Below, piece after piece: positions 13,742 to 45,616 of a DNA stretch of 64,000 nucleotides. Below the pieces are notes generated by a model, which searched no databases, was not told where the DNA came from, and was given only the letters and a program-made list of their open reading frames with translations. Source of the DNA: Hyphomicrobium sp. NDB2Meth4. GTDB lineage: Bacteria > Pseudomonadota > Alphaproteobacteria > Rhizobiales > Hyphomicrobiaceae. Position 1 is the first letter of the stretch, and each line of letters begins with the position of its first letter. The stretch spans positions 186,001-250,000 of the forward strand of contig NZ_FPEJ01000001.1 in NCBI RefSeq assembly GCF_900117445.1, written 5' to 3'. The position numbers and the translations under genes were made by a program.

Positions 13742-13925
13742 GGAGCAACCCTCGCTGCATTGCAAAGCTATGCAAAACAATCATGCTGCAGCGCACAACG
13801 TATAGCTCACCGTCGCCGCGTGCCGCACGCGGAGCGGCCACGAAAAGCGCCCGAAGAACCTAGGATAATCGCTGCAAACGGCAGACGCCCGGCCGTCAGC
13901 GCGCCGCCGATGGGCGGCGGGCAAG

Positions 13926-14000
13926 AAAAAAGGGCCGTTCGGGTGTCGAACGGCCCAAGTCTAGGGAGGAAACGCCCAAGGAGGGCTACAACACCGGAGC
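13926..14000 (-). ncRNA. mmgR/suhB-like small RNA, copy A
   Basis: Read on the minus strand: a 5' hairpin (GCCC-TCCTT-GGGC), a single-stranded TTTCCTCCCTAGACTT core with anti-Shine-Dalgarno character, then a perfect 10-bp terminator hairpin GGGCCGTTCG/CGAACGGCCC followed by six T. The order of elements and the TTTCCTCCCT core match, from memory, the alphaproteobacterial mmgR (suhB RNA) family, whose Sinorhizobium member is about 77 nt and affects polyhydroxybutyrate granules. A near-identical copy lies 230 bases away. The 5' end is estimated from the end of similarity between copies. Confidence 0.75.
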
Positions 14001-14159
14001 AAGCTCACGATGTCGCATCGCAAAAGTTACTGGTGCGACGCAGCATAATCAAATGCATTTTTTGCAGAGCTGCCCTTCCAAAATCAGGGGCCCATGCAAA
14101 TCTCGGCTACCAGTCACACCTCTAGAAGTCGAGCAGTACATTCCTACCACCCAAACGTG

Positions 14160-14235
14160 AAAAAAGGCCGTCCGGCGAACGAACGGCCCAAGTCTAGGGA
14201 GGAAACGCCCAAGTGGGCTAACGGTAGTCTGGAGC
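14160..14235 (-). ncRNA. mmgR/suhB-like small RNA, copy B
   Basis: Same architecture as copy A: 5' hairpin GCCC-ACTT-GGGC, identical core GGGCGTTTCCTCCCTAGACT, and terminator stem GGCCGTTCG/CGGACGGCC (one G-U pair) followed by six T. The loop and part of the stem differ from copy A while pairing is kept, which supports a functional RNA. Tandem copies in one gap suggest duplication with partly separate regulation. No promoter could be fixed. Confidence 0.75.
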
Positions 14236-26171: not shown

Positions 26172-26759
26172 TTAAGCTGCGCGCTTCGGCCGCCTAACGC
26201 CTTTCAGTCGAACCGACGCGCTTTTGTGCTGCGCGGCGGCTTGCCACTTAAGATCAGACAGCTCCGAGCCGCGGTGATGAGTCTTCACCACGACGTCACG
26301 GACACTGAAAGCCTCTCGCAGGATCTCAATGCACTTCTCCGGTTCGGCATCCCCACACATGAAGACGTCGAGAGCCGCATAGTCGGCCTCGGGCCAGCTG
26401 TGGATGGAGATGTGACTCTCCGCAAGAACGGCAACGCCCGACACGCCACCATTGGGCGTGAAGTGATGCAGGTGAAGGTTCAGCAGGGTTGCACCCGCTG
26501 CCTTCGCGCACCGCTTCAGCGTTGCCTCGATGTGCTTGAGATCGTCGAGCCGTCGAGCACCGAACAGGTCCACGATGAGGTGGGTTCCTGCGAAGCGCTT
26601 CCCGTTTCGCTCGACGAAGAAGTCTTTCCTGTCGTCATGCGCAACCTGCGCATGGTCTTCGTGCGCTACAGGCGCAGCTACACGACGATCTTCCTCTTGG
26701 GCGGTGCTTGAACGAGTCAAGTCCATCCCCAATTGGAAGAGGGTGTCATTAAAGGCCAT
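26172..26759 (-). CDS. speD: S-adenosylmethionine decarboxylase
   Basis: Pyruvoyl enzyme making decarboxylated SAM for spermidine synthesis. The core (about residues 55-170) is the bacterial class 1B form: GTHLIVDLFGAR, the self-cleavage Glu-Ser pair at Ser115 in LAESHISIHSWPE, and DVFMCGDAEPEKC. At 195 residues it is longer than the usual 115-135, with a polar N-terminal extension of about 50 residues and a basic tail. GGGAGG precedes the ATG by five bases. The ribosome site and start can pair with an upstream inverted repeat (26853-26873). Confidence 0.94.
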   Translation of the reverse strand: MAFNDTLFQLGMDLTRSSTAQEEDRRVAAPVAHEDHAQVAHDDRKDFFVERNGKRFAGTHLIVDLFGARRLDDLKHIEATLKRCAKAAGATLLNLHLHHFTPNGGVSGVAVLAESHISIHSWPEADYAALDVFMCGDAEPEKCIEILREAFSVRDVVVKTHHRGSELSDLKWQAAAQHKSASVRLKGVRRPKRAA

Positions 26760-26873
26760 ATGACCCTCCCCAACCAGCAGATAGAGGTGACCCGTCCGCT
26801 CCTTACCTTGGGGGTTCTGGAAAACCTCGACCTTAAGGGCAGGTGGACGAACGGAGAGGGGTCATATGAGGCC
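26754..26873 (-). promoter_or_regulatory. speD leader with start-sequestering inverted repeat
   Basis: On the minus strand, GGCCTCATATGACCCCTCTCC (26873 to 26853, shown here only as an arm) can pair with GGGGAGGGTCATATGGCC around the speD start. The second arm contains both the Shine-Dalgarno and the start codon, so pairing would hide them. An 80-base insert separates the arms and carries smaller hairpins. The first arm also contains the start of a 10-codon upstream ORF. The arrangement resembles translational switches; the ligand, if any, is unknown. Confidence 0.5.
26833..26865 (-). CDS. Upstream ORF in the speD leader (MTPLRSSTCP)
   Basis: A 10-codon frame, MTPLRSSTCP then TAA, begins inside the left arm of the inverted repeat and ends 74 bases before speD. 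A run of nine G lies about ten bases upstream and could serve as ribosome site. Ribosomes on this frame would open the arm and free the speD start. Reality of translation is untested; proposed because of its position. Confidence 0.3.
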   Translation of the reverse strand: MTPLRSSTCP

Positions 26874-26889
26874 AACCCCCCCCCTACGC

Positions 26890-26925
26890 AAGAAGAATTT
26901 TGCCCCTGCGGGCAAAATTTTTCGT
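26890..26925 (-). terminator. Hairpin between asmA-like gene and speD
   Basis: A perfect 10-bp stem AATTTTGCCC/GGGCAAAATT with a four-base loop at 26896-26919, AT-rich at its base. On the minus strand it is followed by CTTCTT, so it could end the AsmA-family transcript; on the plus strand TTT follows. It sits at the upstream side of the speD leader. Confidence 0.55.
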
Positions 26926-27004
26926 CGCGCATCCGCGTAGCGGTTTTGCAGGGGCTCTCTGCAGGCTGCGACGAGTTGAACGCGCGCCCTCTCGCGCTGC
27001 CGTC

Positions 27005-29302
27005 TCACTTCTTTCCGAACAGCCCATCGAGGAGCTTTTGCGCCTTTGATGGCCCGCCATCCTCGCTCTTTCCGAACAGATCTTTGACGACTTCGCCTGC
27101 GTTCTTTCCCTTGAGCTGCTTGCCGATTTGCTTCACCGCATCGACCGTGCCTTGGCTGTTCAGCGCGCCGGCGATGTCTGGTTGGAACTTTGGCTGCTGC
27201 CACGAGCCGGTGATGTGCACCGGCACCTCGATGCCCGCAGCGTCCTTCTCGCCACCATCGCCCTTCAGGTTGGCGACGAGCTTCGGCTTCACGGTGTAGT
27301 CGAGCGAACGCTGCGGCAGGTCGACGGAGCCCGCGCCCGTCGCATGCAGGTGCGGGCTGTCGAGCTTCAGGTCGCTGTTGCTGGCGATGCCATTGGCGAT
27401 CGCAAAGCTTCCGGTCATCGACCGGAATGTCGTCCGCTTCGTGCGGTCGTAATTGAAATCCGGGATGCCGCCCTCCGACAGCTCATCAAGAGCACCGCCC
27501 AGATCGAAGCCCATCACCGCGCCGTTGTTGACCGCAACGCGCGAGGAACCATTGAGCGAGTTGACGATCGCAGCTTCGTTCGCCCCGCGCCCACTCACCT
27601 TCCACGACACGTCCGCCGTCCCATCGAGCCAGTCGACTTTGGCGGAATCCCGCAACAGCCTGCCGGCATTGACGCCTGTCAGCGAGATGTCTGAAGTGAA
27701 CGCCGCCTCGCTCTGGGTCGCGTCCAGCGTCACCTGCCCTTTGCCGAGGCCGTTGTAGAGGCGCAGCTCGGCCAGATCGATGCGCGCCACCTGATCTTTG
27801 AGGTCGACAGTCGCCCGCGCCGTATCGATCTTGGTGCGCCCATAGGTGATGTCGACGAGTTGCAGCCGGGCATCGGCATCGACGAGCCCGAGCGCCTTGA
27901 TGTCGATCGGCTCCGAACTCCACGGCCCTGCCGCGCGCTGTGTATAGCCTTTGACCCGCGGCCCCGGCTGCGGCTGGTTCAGCAGGTCGTCAATCGACTG
28001 CGGCTCCTCCGCCGGCGCTGGCGCATCGAGCGACAGCGGCGTCGGAGCCGGTACGGAGCGCCCCTGACCGGCGGTAGCGCGCAGGTCGGCACCGAGCGGC
28101 AGCGCCGCCACGTCGAGCCCGCTGATCCTGAGATCGGCCCCCACGTGCGGACGCGCACCCTGGCGCTCCTCGAAGCTGACCGCGCCGGCAGCCGCCGTGC
28201 GCCCGGCCTTCAGGTCGATGTTCGTCAGCTCCACTGTGCGGGCCGTCGCATTGAGCACGGCCGACAACGACACCGCTCCGGCACCGGCCTCGGGCGACAC
28301 TGGCGTGCCCCACCACTGCGCGAGCGCCGACAGTGAAGGCGAATCCGCCTTCAGCATTCCCCCCGCTTGGTCACCGCCGATCGTGCCGTCATAGCCGAAC
28401 GACAGCGGCGTTCCCGAAACGTCGAGCACGAGCTTGGCCGAACGCCGCGCCGCAAGCTCGGCAGGCGTCGCAAGTGTGCTCTTGAATCTGAAGGTTTCGC
28501 CATCTGCGAGGAAATCGCCGCTGCCGACCAGCGGCTGATCGAGCCCCGGCAGAGAGAAGCGCGCGTTGATGCCGTCGAAGTGGCCCCACGCGCCATTCCG
28601 CTCGTCGTTGTAGCGCACCGCGCCGTTGATGATCGAAATGTCGTCGAGCGACACAGCCGCCAGCTCGCGTGGCGCCGCATGGGCCGATGGCGCGATCAGC
28701 TCTCGCGCACCACTCAGCCAGCCACCAGTCTCGCCACCGCCGGCAAAGCGGAATGGCATCGCCGCGCTAGCCATCTCCCAGTTTCTGCGCCCATCGGCAT
28801 CGACGCGCAGAGAGAACACCGGTTCGTTCAGCACCAGGCGGTCGACGACGATCTCCTGCCGCAGGAGCGGCATCAGCTTGACGCCGACGTCGAAGCTTTC
28901 GGCTTTCAGCAGCGGCGCTCCGCCCATGCCGGGAGGCGCAGACAGCGACACGCCGTTGAGCCGCAGCCCTAGTGACGGGAAGAACGTGAACGAGGCCGGC
29001 CCCGCGATCGTCAGATCTCGTCCAGTCTCCGACTTCACCCGAGCAATGATCTCGCGGCGGATGAAATCGGTCGGCGCCGACATGACGAGCACAGTCGCGC
29101 CGAACACGCCGAGTGCCAGCACCGCAACGCCGCCATAGAGCAGCACTGAGCGCACCCACGACGAGCCCCGCGGCGGCGGTGCCGGCGGTCTGCGCTCGCC
29201 CTGAAACCCATATGGCAGGTTGGCCCCATAGCGCTGATCACCCAGCGTCTGGCGACGCGGCGGCGGCTGCGTTCCCCTGGCCGGCGGCCTCGAGTTGTTC
29301 AT
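27005..29302 (-). CDS. AsmA-family inner-membrane protein
   Basis: A 765-residue protein with a cytoplasmic proline-rich start (MNNSRPPARGTQPPPRRQ), one membrane helix (about residues 50-72, VLLYGGVAVLALGVFGATVL), and a long periplasmic AsmA region. That region has the N-terminal family signature (RDLTIAGPASFTFFPSLGL) and the C-terminal AsmA domain (AIVNSLNGSSRVAVNNGAVMG). AsmA-like proteins are thought to bridge the periplasm for phospholipid transport. The ATG at 29302 has GAGG upstream. Confidence 0.9.
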   Translation of the reverse strand: MNNSRPPARGTQPPPRRQTLGDQRYGANLPYGFQGERRPPAPPPRGSSWVRSVLLYGGVAVLALGVFGATVLVMSAPTDFIRREIIARVKSETGRDLTIAGPASFTFFPSLGLRLNGVSLSAPPGMGGAPLLKAESFDVGVKLMPLLRQEIVVDRLVLNEPVFSLRVDADGRRNWEMASAAMPFRFAGGGETGGWLSGARELIAPSAHAAPRELAAVSLDDISIINGAVRYNDERNGAWGHFDGINARFSLPGLDQPLVGSGDFLADGETFRFKSTLATPAELAARRSAKLVLDVSGTPLSFGYDGTIGGDQAGGMLKADSPSLSALAQWWGTPVSPEAGAGAVSLSAVLNATARTVELTNIDLKAGRTAAAGAVSFEERQGARPHVGADLRISGLDVAALPLGADLRATAGQGRSVPAPTPLSLDAPAPAEEPQSIDDLLNQPQPGPRVKGYTQRAAGPWSSEPIDIKALGLVDADARLQLVDITYGRTKIDTARATVDLKDQVARIDLAELRLYNGLGKGQVTLDATQSEAAFTSDISLTGVNAGRLLRDSAKVDWLDGTADVSWKVSGRGANEAAIVNSLNGSSRVAVNNGAVMGFDLGGALDELSEGGIPDFNYDRTKRTTFRSMTGSFAIANGIASNSDLKLDSPHLHATGAGSVDLPQRSLDYTVKPKLVANLKGDGGEKDAAGIEVPVHITGSWQQPKFQPDIAGALNSQGTVDAVKQIGKQLKGKNAGEVVKDLFGKSEDGGPSKAQKLLDGLFGKK

Positions 29303-44961: not shown

Positions 44962-45164
44962 AGATCACACGATAAATCCGCTTTTGTCCGTGTGCGGCCA
45001 CCGCTTCGCCGCACACGGATCGTCGGCACCCGGCGTCGAAACCTTCCCATGACAACCTGCGACATATGGTGTGTTGCAGCTGTGCACCGAGCGGACCACC
45101 GCACCGGAGCCCGCATAGTTTCGCTTGACTCTGAGCCCATGTTCCGGCGCTCTATTCCCCGCGA

Positions 45165-45362
45165 CGGTTTCGCTGCGTGCCTCGGTGCACAGCGATGAAA
45201 ATGGGAACTCGGTGTGATGCCGTCAGGTATCGAAGCCGAGGCTGCTCCCGCAACTGTAAGCGGCAAGTTTCTTCCGCATATGCCACTGGCAGCCCGCGTT
45301 GGGCCGCCGGGAAGGTCGGAAAGAAACGCTTGAGCCGCGAGCCAGGAGACCTGCCGCCGCAA
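45165..45362 (+). promoter_or_regulatory. Cobalamin riboswitch
   Basis: The leader contains the hallmarks of the B12 aptamer in order: GGTGCACAGCGATGAAAA, TGGGAACTCGGTG, GATGCCGTCAGG, GCTGCTCCCGCAACTGTAAG (B12-box region), and the closing GAGCCAGGAGACCTGCCG. It is about 255 bases upstream of the BtuB-type receptor gene, which it should repress when adenosylcobalamin is abundant. Confidence 0.93.
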
Positions 45363-45616
45363 GTCGCCCATTCGCCATGCGGGATGCTTGGTGGAGCGGA
45401 AACCCGTAGCGGCGACTGATGTGCAACCGAAGGGGAGCTACGTCAGGCATGTCTTTCTACGGTGTCTATTCCCGGCACTAACCGAGTGAGACAGTAACCT
45501 CTGCACTGGCCGCAGCCATGCGCTGTGGCGAGAGCGCTATTGTTTCCGCGCGTAGTAGTAAGCGTTGTGTGGCGTCAGCTTTCCCGAGGCTCAGTTCAGC
45601 ATAACGGGAGGCTAAT

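Follow-up and report, generated by a model that had tools for sequence, protein, structure and literature searches.

The locus of Hyphomicrobium sp. NDB2Meth4 analyzed here raises the question of how the start of speD translation is controlled. The gene (26172-26759, minus strand; positions are those of the window, the whole stretch of 64,000 nucleotides that was analyzed) codes for an S-adenosylmethionine decarboxylase of 195 aa (PF02675, 120.7 bits; TIGR03330, 126.7 bits), with the domain starting at residue 56-60 and the catalytic ESHIS intact. The 3' end of its Shine-Dalgarno (SD) box, GGAGG, is 5 nt upstream of the ATG. An earlier note on this DNA had described two near-complementary arms, one at the speD start and the other about 100 bases upstream, that would bury SD and ATG, and a 10-codon frame whose translation would release them. 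Our analysis confirms the observation in part, and the interpretation is partly supported as well. A conserved structure apparently able to mask the SD is present, but its partner strand is CCUCUUCCAA (26742-26733), within the coding region, and not the upstream arm; an exchange between two folds is plausible, although not its opening by the translated 10-codon frame.

Both arms exist, GGCCATATGACCCTCCCC (26754-26771) and GGCCTCATATGACCCCTCTCC (26853-26873, read on the minus strand), with an exact core of 10 nt (CATATGACCC/GGGTCATATG) at a distance of 92 nt, and so does the frame, which runs from ATG to TAA at 26865-26833 of the minus strand and codes for MTPLRSSTCP. When the 201-nt stretch was shuffled 300 times with its dinucleotides kept, 6 shuffles contained a perfect inverted repeat of at least 10 nt, i.e., the repeat is weakly above chance. 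Among 44 family loci with a readable leader the 10-nt pair is exact in just 6, the ATG is missing at its site in 20, and the peptide is exact in 6, with 4 further loci differing by 1-2 residues. These loci came from SpeD searches in the genus and the family (88 of 99 family genomes match) and from 16 stretches taken from weaker matches; two (L024 and L029) were dropped because their upstream side is lost at contig ends. What is near-invariant in the family is the sequence located between the arms and beside them.

Part of this constancy looks like a promoter, TTGCGT-17 nt-CATATG. The -35 box (26886-26891, minus) contains CTTGC and the -10 box (26863-26868, minus) CATA in 44/44 family loci, and the spacing between the two is identical in 43 of them. 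A strict sigma-70 scan did not match the speD promoter; for S. meliloti, conservation of the -10 region has been reported to be poor (PMC3616915). The predicted transcription start, deduced from the promoter, would be at 26857 (about 26858-26855, minus), and the first leader strand begins 13-15 nt past the -10 box. The upstream arm and the ATG of the frame overlap this -10 box, CATATG, which is self-complementary and appears without ATG in other family loci (CATATC, CATAAG, CATACA, CATAAA). Since the ATG of the 10-codon frame sits on the -10 box, this start codon is upstream of the predicted transcript and probably not transcribed. Arms and frame, real as they are in this strain, look accidental in the comparison of relatives, and a switch opened by translation of MTPLRSSTCP is nearly refuted by the position of its ATG and by how rarely arm and ATG are kept. 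An inverted repeat (GAAGAATTTTGCCC/GGGCAAAATTTTTC, 26892-26923) is located at and upstream of the promoter, preceded by an AsmA-like gene that ends at 27005; it is a possible terminator, and the terminator scan lists none there.

The conserved element itself (26689-26784, minus) comprises a 5' box, the SD, the ATG and speD codons 1-24, and is near-invariant in the 44 family loci. Their DNA hardly differs between the SD and codon 24, and past codon 24 SpeD falls to about 31-38% identity in some. We compared codon use in 38 family CDS, all taken from the protein search and free of pattern-chosen loci. In codons 5-24, 12067 of 12227 same-residue comparisons were codon-identical (98.7%), against 22412 of 47483 (47%) in codons 56-165, the catalytic domain. 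Codons 25-55 gave 55% and the other 20-codon windows 58% or less. As silent sites are fixed in codons 5-24, the constraint is, judged by codon choice, on the nucleic acid. Model R2 found the element once in the genome of this strain (99.3 bits); the second-best place (21.4 bits, E 0.08) was taken as chance. Protein hits to the first 20-30 SpeD residues in five family genomes were examined as stand-alone copies and rejected, all five being at contig ends. The contigs that end at the element (G008:C75, G021:C12, G065:C14, G077:C11 and G091:C12) do so perhaps because the hairpin hampers sequencing.

The fixed silent sites bear on an unlikely alternative, in which the nascent peptide would be the sensor, the ribosome stalling on xLFQLGMDL...STAQTEE, as happens with known leader peptides, and the RNA merely setting the pause. 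The peptide is indeed conserved as the start of SpeD, and a separate frame of 62-98 aa is found before nspC in 19 of the 78 named loci among the matches listed, which is the layout of leader peptides. But silent positions show as little variation as coding ones. Arrest peptides of the type of SpeFL, as the orf34 leader peptide of Salmonella speF is called, have a conserved peptide with free codon choice, and codons 5-24 do not show that freedom. Besides, the peptide varies class-wide and the helices P2 and P3 described below mostly stay. In Shinella, a change of UUGGG to UCGGG swaps Leu for Ser while CCCAA to CCCGA keeps the pairing.

The structure was analyzed in two alignments. A3 contains 68 distinct rows out of 106 distinct cores, 13 rows with long P3 inserts being excluded. 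A4 is class-wide, with 52 distinct rows; 3 of 33 class hits were left out, and the class rows were found with R2 and are biased to its structure. The pattern-chosen rows carry the exact CTGGTTGGGGA/CTCTTCCAA (80 loci, those listed of at least 120 stretches), so that the invariance of those columns is by construction. L122, where the exact core is absent, and the false pattern matches L179 and L190 were excluded.

In A3, P1, P2 and P3 together were paired in 95.8% of cells, and two-sided changes were found in 65 cells versus 10.6 in shuffles, a number reached by 0/500. Sliding the partners by one column lowered pairing to 64% or less. Extra pair types were not in excess (14 versus 13.7 in shuffles). 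The strands of P2 are UUGGG (26728-26732, minus, codons 10-11) and CCCAA (26697-26701, minus, codons 20-21), where a UA pair is replaced by CG on both sides (A3 columns 65-101; UA in 62 rows, CG in 6). P3 joins CUUGA (26717-26721, minus) to UCAAG (26707-26711, minus), with UA to CG, GC to AU and AU to GC replacements at A3 pairs 77-90, 78-89 and 79-88, respectively; in A4 each of its five pairs has changed on both sides. By eye, P3 is extended to longer stems in some members (Stappia, Roseibium). There are exceptions in A3: L066, L092, L118 and L123 break the P2 pair 64-102, and the P3 pair 75-92 is missing in 20 rows. Outside P2 an outer helix pairs CUUCC (26735-26739, minus) with GGAAG (26690-26694, minus, codons 22-24); RNAalifold, unaided, found this pairing together with P2 and P3, and the pairing is class-wide in A4. 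In A4 these three helices were 90.1% paired, with two-sided change at 11 pairs and in 48 cells (14.4 in shuffles, 0/500), and slid partners gave at most 63.8% pairing and 22 two-sided cells. The covariation of P2 and P3, along with the gene context described below, indicates that the element is a cis-regulatory structured RNA.

Other pairings are backed to different degrees. P1 would join the SD strand GGUUGGGGAGG (26765-26775, minus) to CCUCUUCCAA (codons 6-9), with the start codon (26757-26759, minus) located in its loop. It was 99.2% paired in A3 (8 of 9 pairs invariant) and 90.2% in A4, where it had 9 two-sided cells versus 3.6 shuffled (2/500). However, partners slid by -3 and +3 gave 13 and 9, so the covariation is no proof of SD pairing, and P1 is proposed from its pairing and position. 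The 5' box (26774-26784, minus; core AUCURCUGG, kept class-wide in A4) has AAUUGGGGAU as partner, paired in 97.5% of cells with one two-sided cell. Upstream, a putative family-only helix P0 between S1 (26845-26856, minus) and S2 (26791-26802, minus) is paired in 96.6% of cells with two-sided change at a single pair, and the case for it is weak. Within 26788-26856, the first leader strand is similar to the coding strand at codons 15-20, and each of the two can pair with 26788-26807. The resemblance of MTPLRSSTCP to the SpeD residues MDLTRSSTA is read as that of two RNA strands, S1 and codons 15-20, each able to pair with S2, which can be a further switching option in the family only. For 43 family rows RNAalifold gave a long hairpin of the leader with codons 6-20. 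It has zero two-sided changes and was set aside, not disproved, because it is incompatible with P2, which covaries class-wide.

The pairings suggest how the element could work. The strand CCUCUUCCAA (26733-26742, minus) would be exchanged between two folds that have CUCUUCCAA in common. In the first one, P1, it is the 3' strand of a hairpin that holds SD and ATG. In the second one it pairs with GGAAG, which rivals the SD for CUUCC, so that the SD would lose its partner; this fold closes a two-part hairpin formed by UUGGG:CCCAA and then CUUGA:UCAAG. Constrained folding of 105 of the 106 distinct cores gave a median of -31.6 kcal/mol with the SD hidden and -29.4 kcal/mol with the outer helix enforced, the difference having a median of +1.8 kcal/mol (quartiles 0.75 and 3.75). 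In unconstrained folding the median probability of the outer helix (CUUCC:GGAAG pair tested) was 0.02, and with a value so small the SD-hidden fold dominates the prediction. The window transcript gave -62.0 (SD hidden) versus -61.2 kcal/mol (outer helix), and in its alternative fold the SD is still in weak local pairs. The stretch 26720-26900 showed no extra stability against its shuffles (z -0.24). A two-state switch that rests off suits these predicted energies, which alone prove nothing. Our proposal, held with slightly better than even confidence, is that spermidine synthesis is controlled here by a new cis-acting translational switch, formed by the 5' end of the speD mRNA.

Many alphaproteobacteria carry the element. 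Model R1 matched in 46 of 297 order genomes, and R2 in 49 of the same 297 and in 33 of 385 class genomes. In a phylum sample R2 matched in 4 of 70 genomes, all four in Alphaproteobacteria, with zero matches in the 52 genomes outside the class. A pattern scan of titled genomes gave 78 real loci out of 80 among the matches listed, the hosts including Hyphomicrobium, Rhodomicrobium, Methyloceanibacter, Parvibaculum, Kiloniella, Stappia, Roseibium, Shinella, Bosea, Chelatococcus and Microvirga. One of the 78 is from a betaproteobacterial isolate, Verticiella sp. GG226 (L172), where the element stands together with nspC, which suggests acquisition by transfer; it may also be contamination.

What lies behind the element is in most cases speD. 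Among the matches listed, SpeD follows in 55 of the 78 named loci, recognized in 53 by sequence motif and in 2 by Pfam; a frame of 62-98 codons before nspC is opened in 19, and the remaining 4 are cut off (L182, with a loose SpeD motif match only, among them). Of 29 class loci read, 28 have the SpeD motif and the other is SpeD-like as far as read. In a sample of 80 order genomes, SpeD was found in 23 and an R2 match (E of 0.001 or less) in 15, at the SpeD start in 15/15 cases, and none of the 57 SpeD-less genomes has a match. In five SpeD loci read, of the eight without R2 match, the LFQ-LG peptide was absent, so SpeD does not require the element. The nspC side is more irregular. The element was found at 0/11 strong nspC genomes of the order sample. 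Of ten plasmid nspC loci just one has it, that of Chelatococcus daeguensis (102 bits). R2 searches with E up to 10 over 1200-1500 nt of flank found none at nspC of S. meliloti 1021, Ensifer, Ciceribacter, Neorhizobium and Pseudochrobactrum, nor, with the same flank size and E, in Paracoccus, Alloyangia, Salipiger and Peptoclostridium. The element is often missing at nspC and there is no general nspC rule.

Where the element does precede nspC (Shinella, Bosea, Microvirga, Chelatococcus etc.), its ATG would open the short frame. Relatives do have a leader frame, then, as the earlier note had imagined for speD, but it starts at the element's own ATG and stands before nspC. The stop of this frame is 110-253 nt before a TPYY motif near the start of the carboxynorspermidine decarboxylase gene. 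Three decarboxylases checked against TIGR01047 scored 400.8, 408.3 and 413.5 bits, one of them above the cut-off of 409.05. Where read, the dehydrogenase gene is also behind the leader frame; the one checked against NF043000 had 478 bits, below the cut-off of 800. Translation of the leader frame could keep transcription going across the gap before nspC, a polarity model in which the transcript may be shielded from Rho by analogy with orf34 at Salmonella speF. In 13 of the 19 nspC loci (L129, L132, L142, L149, L161, L162, L166-L168, L174, L177, L186 and L193) a short hairpin such as GCGCnAAAGCGC, in this or a closely related form, is located 8-44 nt before the end of the leader frame, and it may be a second regulatory part at nspC.

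This double association points to a signal. Synthesis via nspC bypasses decarboxylated S-adenosylmethionine, and both target pathways yield spermidine, which makes spermidine the likeliest ligand. From this shared product of the speD and nspC pathways we infer that the signal is most likely spermidine or a close polyamine, which when plentiful would stabilise the SD-hidden fold.

In part of the family the element precedes SpeD homologues without the catalytic motif. The ESH serine, needed for the pyruvoyl group, is missing with its motif in 34 of the 73 full-length family CDS that begin within the element (e.g., L068, L069, L072-L077, L359-L372 and L374-L381). By genome the share is 32/71 (two genomes are counted twice among the CDS); SpeD matches exist in 88 family genomes, of which these 71 are a part, and some were hand-picked among weak matches, so the share is not free of bias. 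The count covers loci with the exact 21-nt core, 78 of 79 (L373 is without it), 5 of them contig-cut. The exact SD box is kept in 71 of the 73 CDS. Purifying selection acts on codons 51-150 in one genus (12 CDS; median pN / median pS 0.18), where the median change in codons 1-24 is zero. An operon explanation was rejected: in ten family loci examined by eye no polyamine gene is shared downstream of the motif-less speD. As the catalytic motif is gone in 34/73, spermidine synthesis is not the sole reason for the persistence of the element, which seems to outlive catalysis. The motif-less SpeD is best read as a pseudoenzyme under selection, which may serve as a sensor or as a protein partner, and the survival of the element above it raises the question of the role of these proteins. 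Other decarboxylase activities, and degraded domains, have been described among SpeD homologues (PMC10407285); the words Hyphomicrob and inactive do not appear in the available part of that source.

These loci also bear on two alternatives that dispense with a metabolite or with control in cis. The element could be the operator of an RNA-binding protein, SpeD or another regulator, with no metabolite involved. Invariant strands on both sides of a helix are typical of protein sites, and operators that span the start codon are known for the ribosomal protein S4. However, SpeD is strongly diverged in some loci, or replaced by a leader frame and nspC, and the RNA core is kept. This makes autogenous control through SpeD binding unlikely, and nothing points to another protein. 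We give this reading about the same low standing as the stalling peptide. Lower still, and quite improbable, is that the 5' end acts also or mainly as a trans-acting small RNA, its CUCUUCC pairing with the SDs of other mRNAs. Such a role may exist at the motif-less loci, whose element it would explain, and CU-rich anti-SD seeds are common in alphaproteobacterial small RNAs. Yet in the loci read the element and the start of an open frame go together, and the purifying selection on the motif-less SpeD of one genus argues that protein output still matters.

Our preferred reading is still the translational switch in cis. In its widest form, which we put forward tentatively and at less than even chance, the element would represent a second class of spermidine riboswitches, unrelated to the known one, widespread across the Alphaproteobacteria and largely intragenic, with the ligand-gated strand in codons 6-9 and the competitor in codons 22-24. 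It would govern two non-homologous pathways, speD directly and nspC via the leader frame, and in part of the family a motif-less yet selected SpeD homologue.

The element is apparently uncatalogued. Rfam 15 gave zero matches over 26650-27050 with E up to 10, SAM classes and RF00518 included, and in 26 relatives the only matches at gathering score were two tRNAs. Elsewhere in the window there are a cobalamin riboswitch (45148-45372, plus) and two suhB/mmgR-type small RNAs (13917-13993 and 14151-14225, minus). The open-access papers searched describe no such element; subscription papers were mostly outside the search, so novelty in print is uncertain. PMC2864571 nowhere mentions speD or spermidine. 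In a 2026 study of casdh in S. meliloti the fusion took in only 82 nt upstream of that gene, and the part of its text available does not mention 'leader' (PMC13293326). Judged by covariation and gene context, the element is a cis-regulatory RNA; it is a candidate riboswitch. As a candidate it is sharply defined, of about 95 nt, and the exact bases can be tested. If true, the use of codons as switching strands would be unusual, and the fold of the mRNA would dictate the N-terminus of the enzyme. The link to two unrelated spermidine pathways points to a ligand, and through the element these bacteria may monitor their own spermidine.

Several known systems have features in common with it. Like the speF element RF00518 (Corbino et al., 2005, PMC1273637) it is an alphaproteobacterial leader of a polyamine gene. 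RF00518 precedes ornithine decarboxylase as a long leader, at more than 150 nt from the gene, and binding of putrescine or spermidine was not found for it, whereas the present loci have no RF00518 match and the genes behind them, where determined, are speD (PF02675) or nspC. The SAM-II riboswitch at metA (PMC9373788) is also alphaproteobacterial and combines SD sequestration with an upstream AUG, but it is a SAM aptamer located upstream of the start of methionine genes, unlike the present element. Salmonella speF resembles the nspC loci in having a translated short frame, orf34, before a polyamine gene. According to PMC6386406, pausing at arginine codons of orf34 controls Rho termination and a hidden ribosome site; there the gene is that of ornithine decarboxylase, no sequence relation was seen, and here the silent sites are fixed. 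A further one is the spermidine riboswitch, a variant of SAM-I (Salvail et al., 2023, PMC10853860) and the one spermidine class found in the literature searched. Both are RNA leaders at spermidine genes, speD included, with feedback sensing of spermidine proposed here as there. The known class has a four-stem SAM-I aptamer and acts by transcription termination, whereas the present element spans the start codon and has no Rfam match. The authors who described the known class thought it certain that further polyamine riboswitches await discovery.
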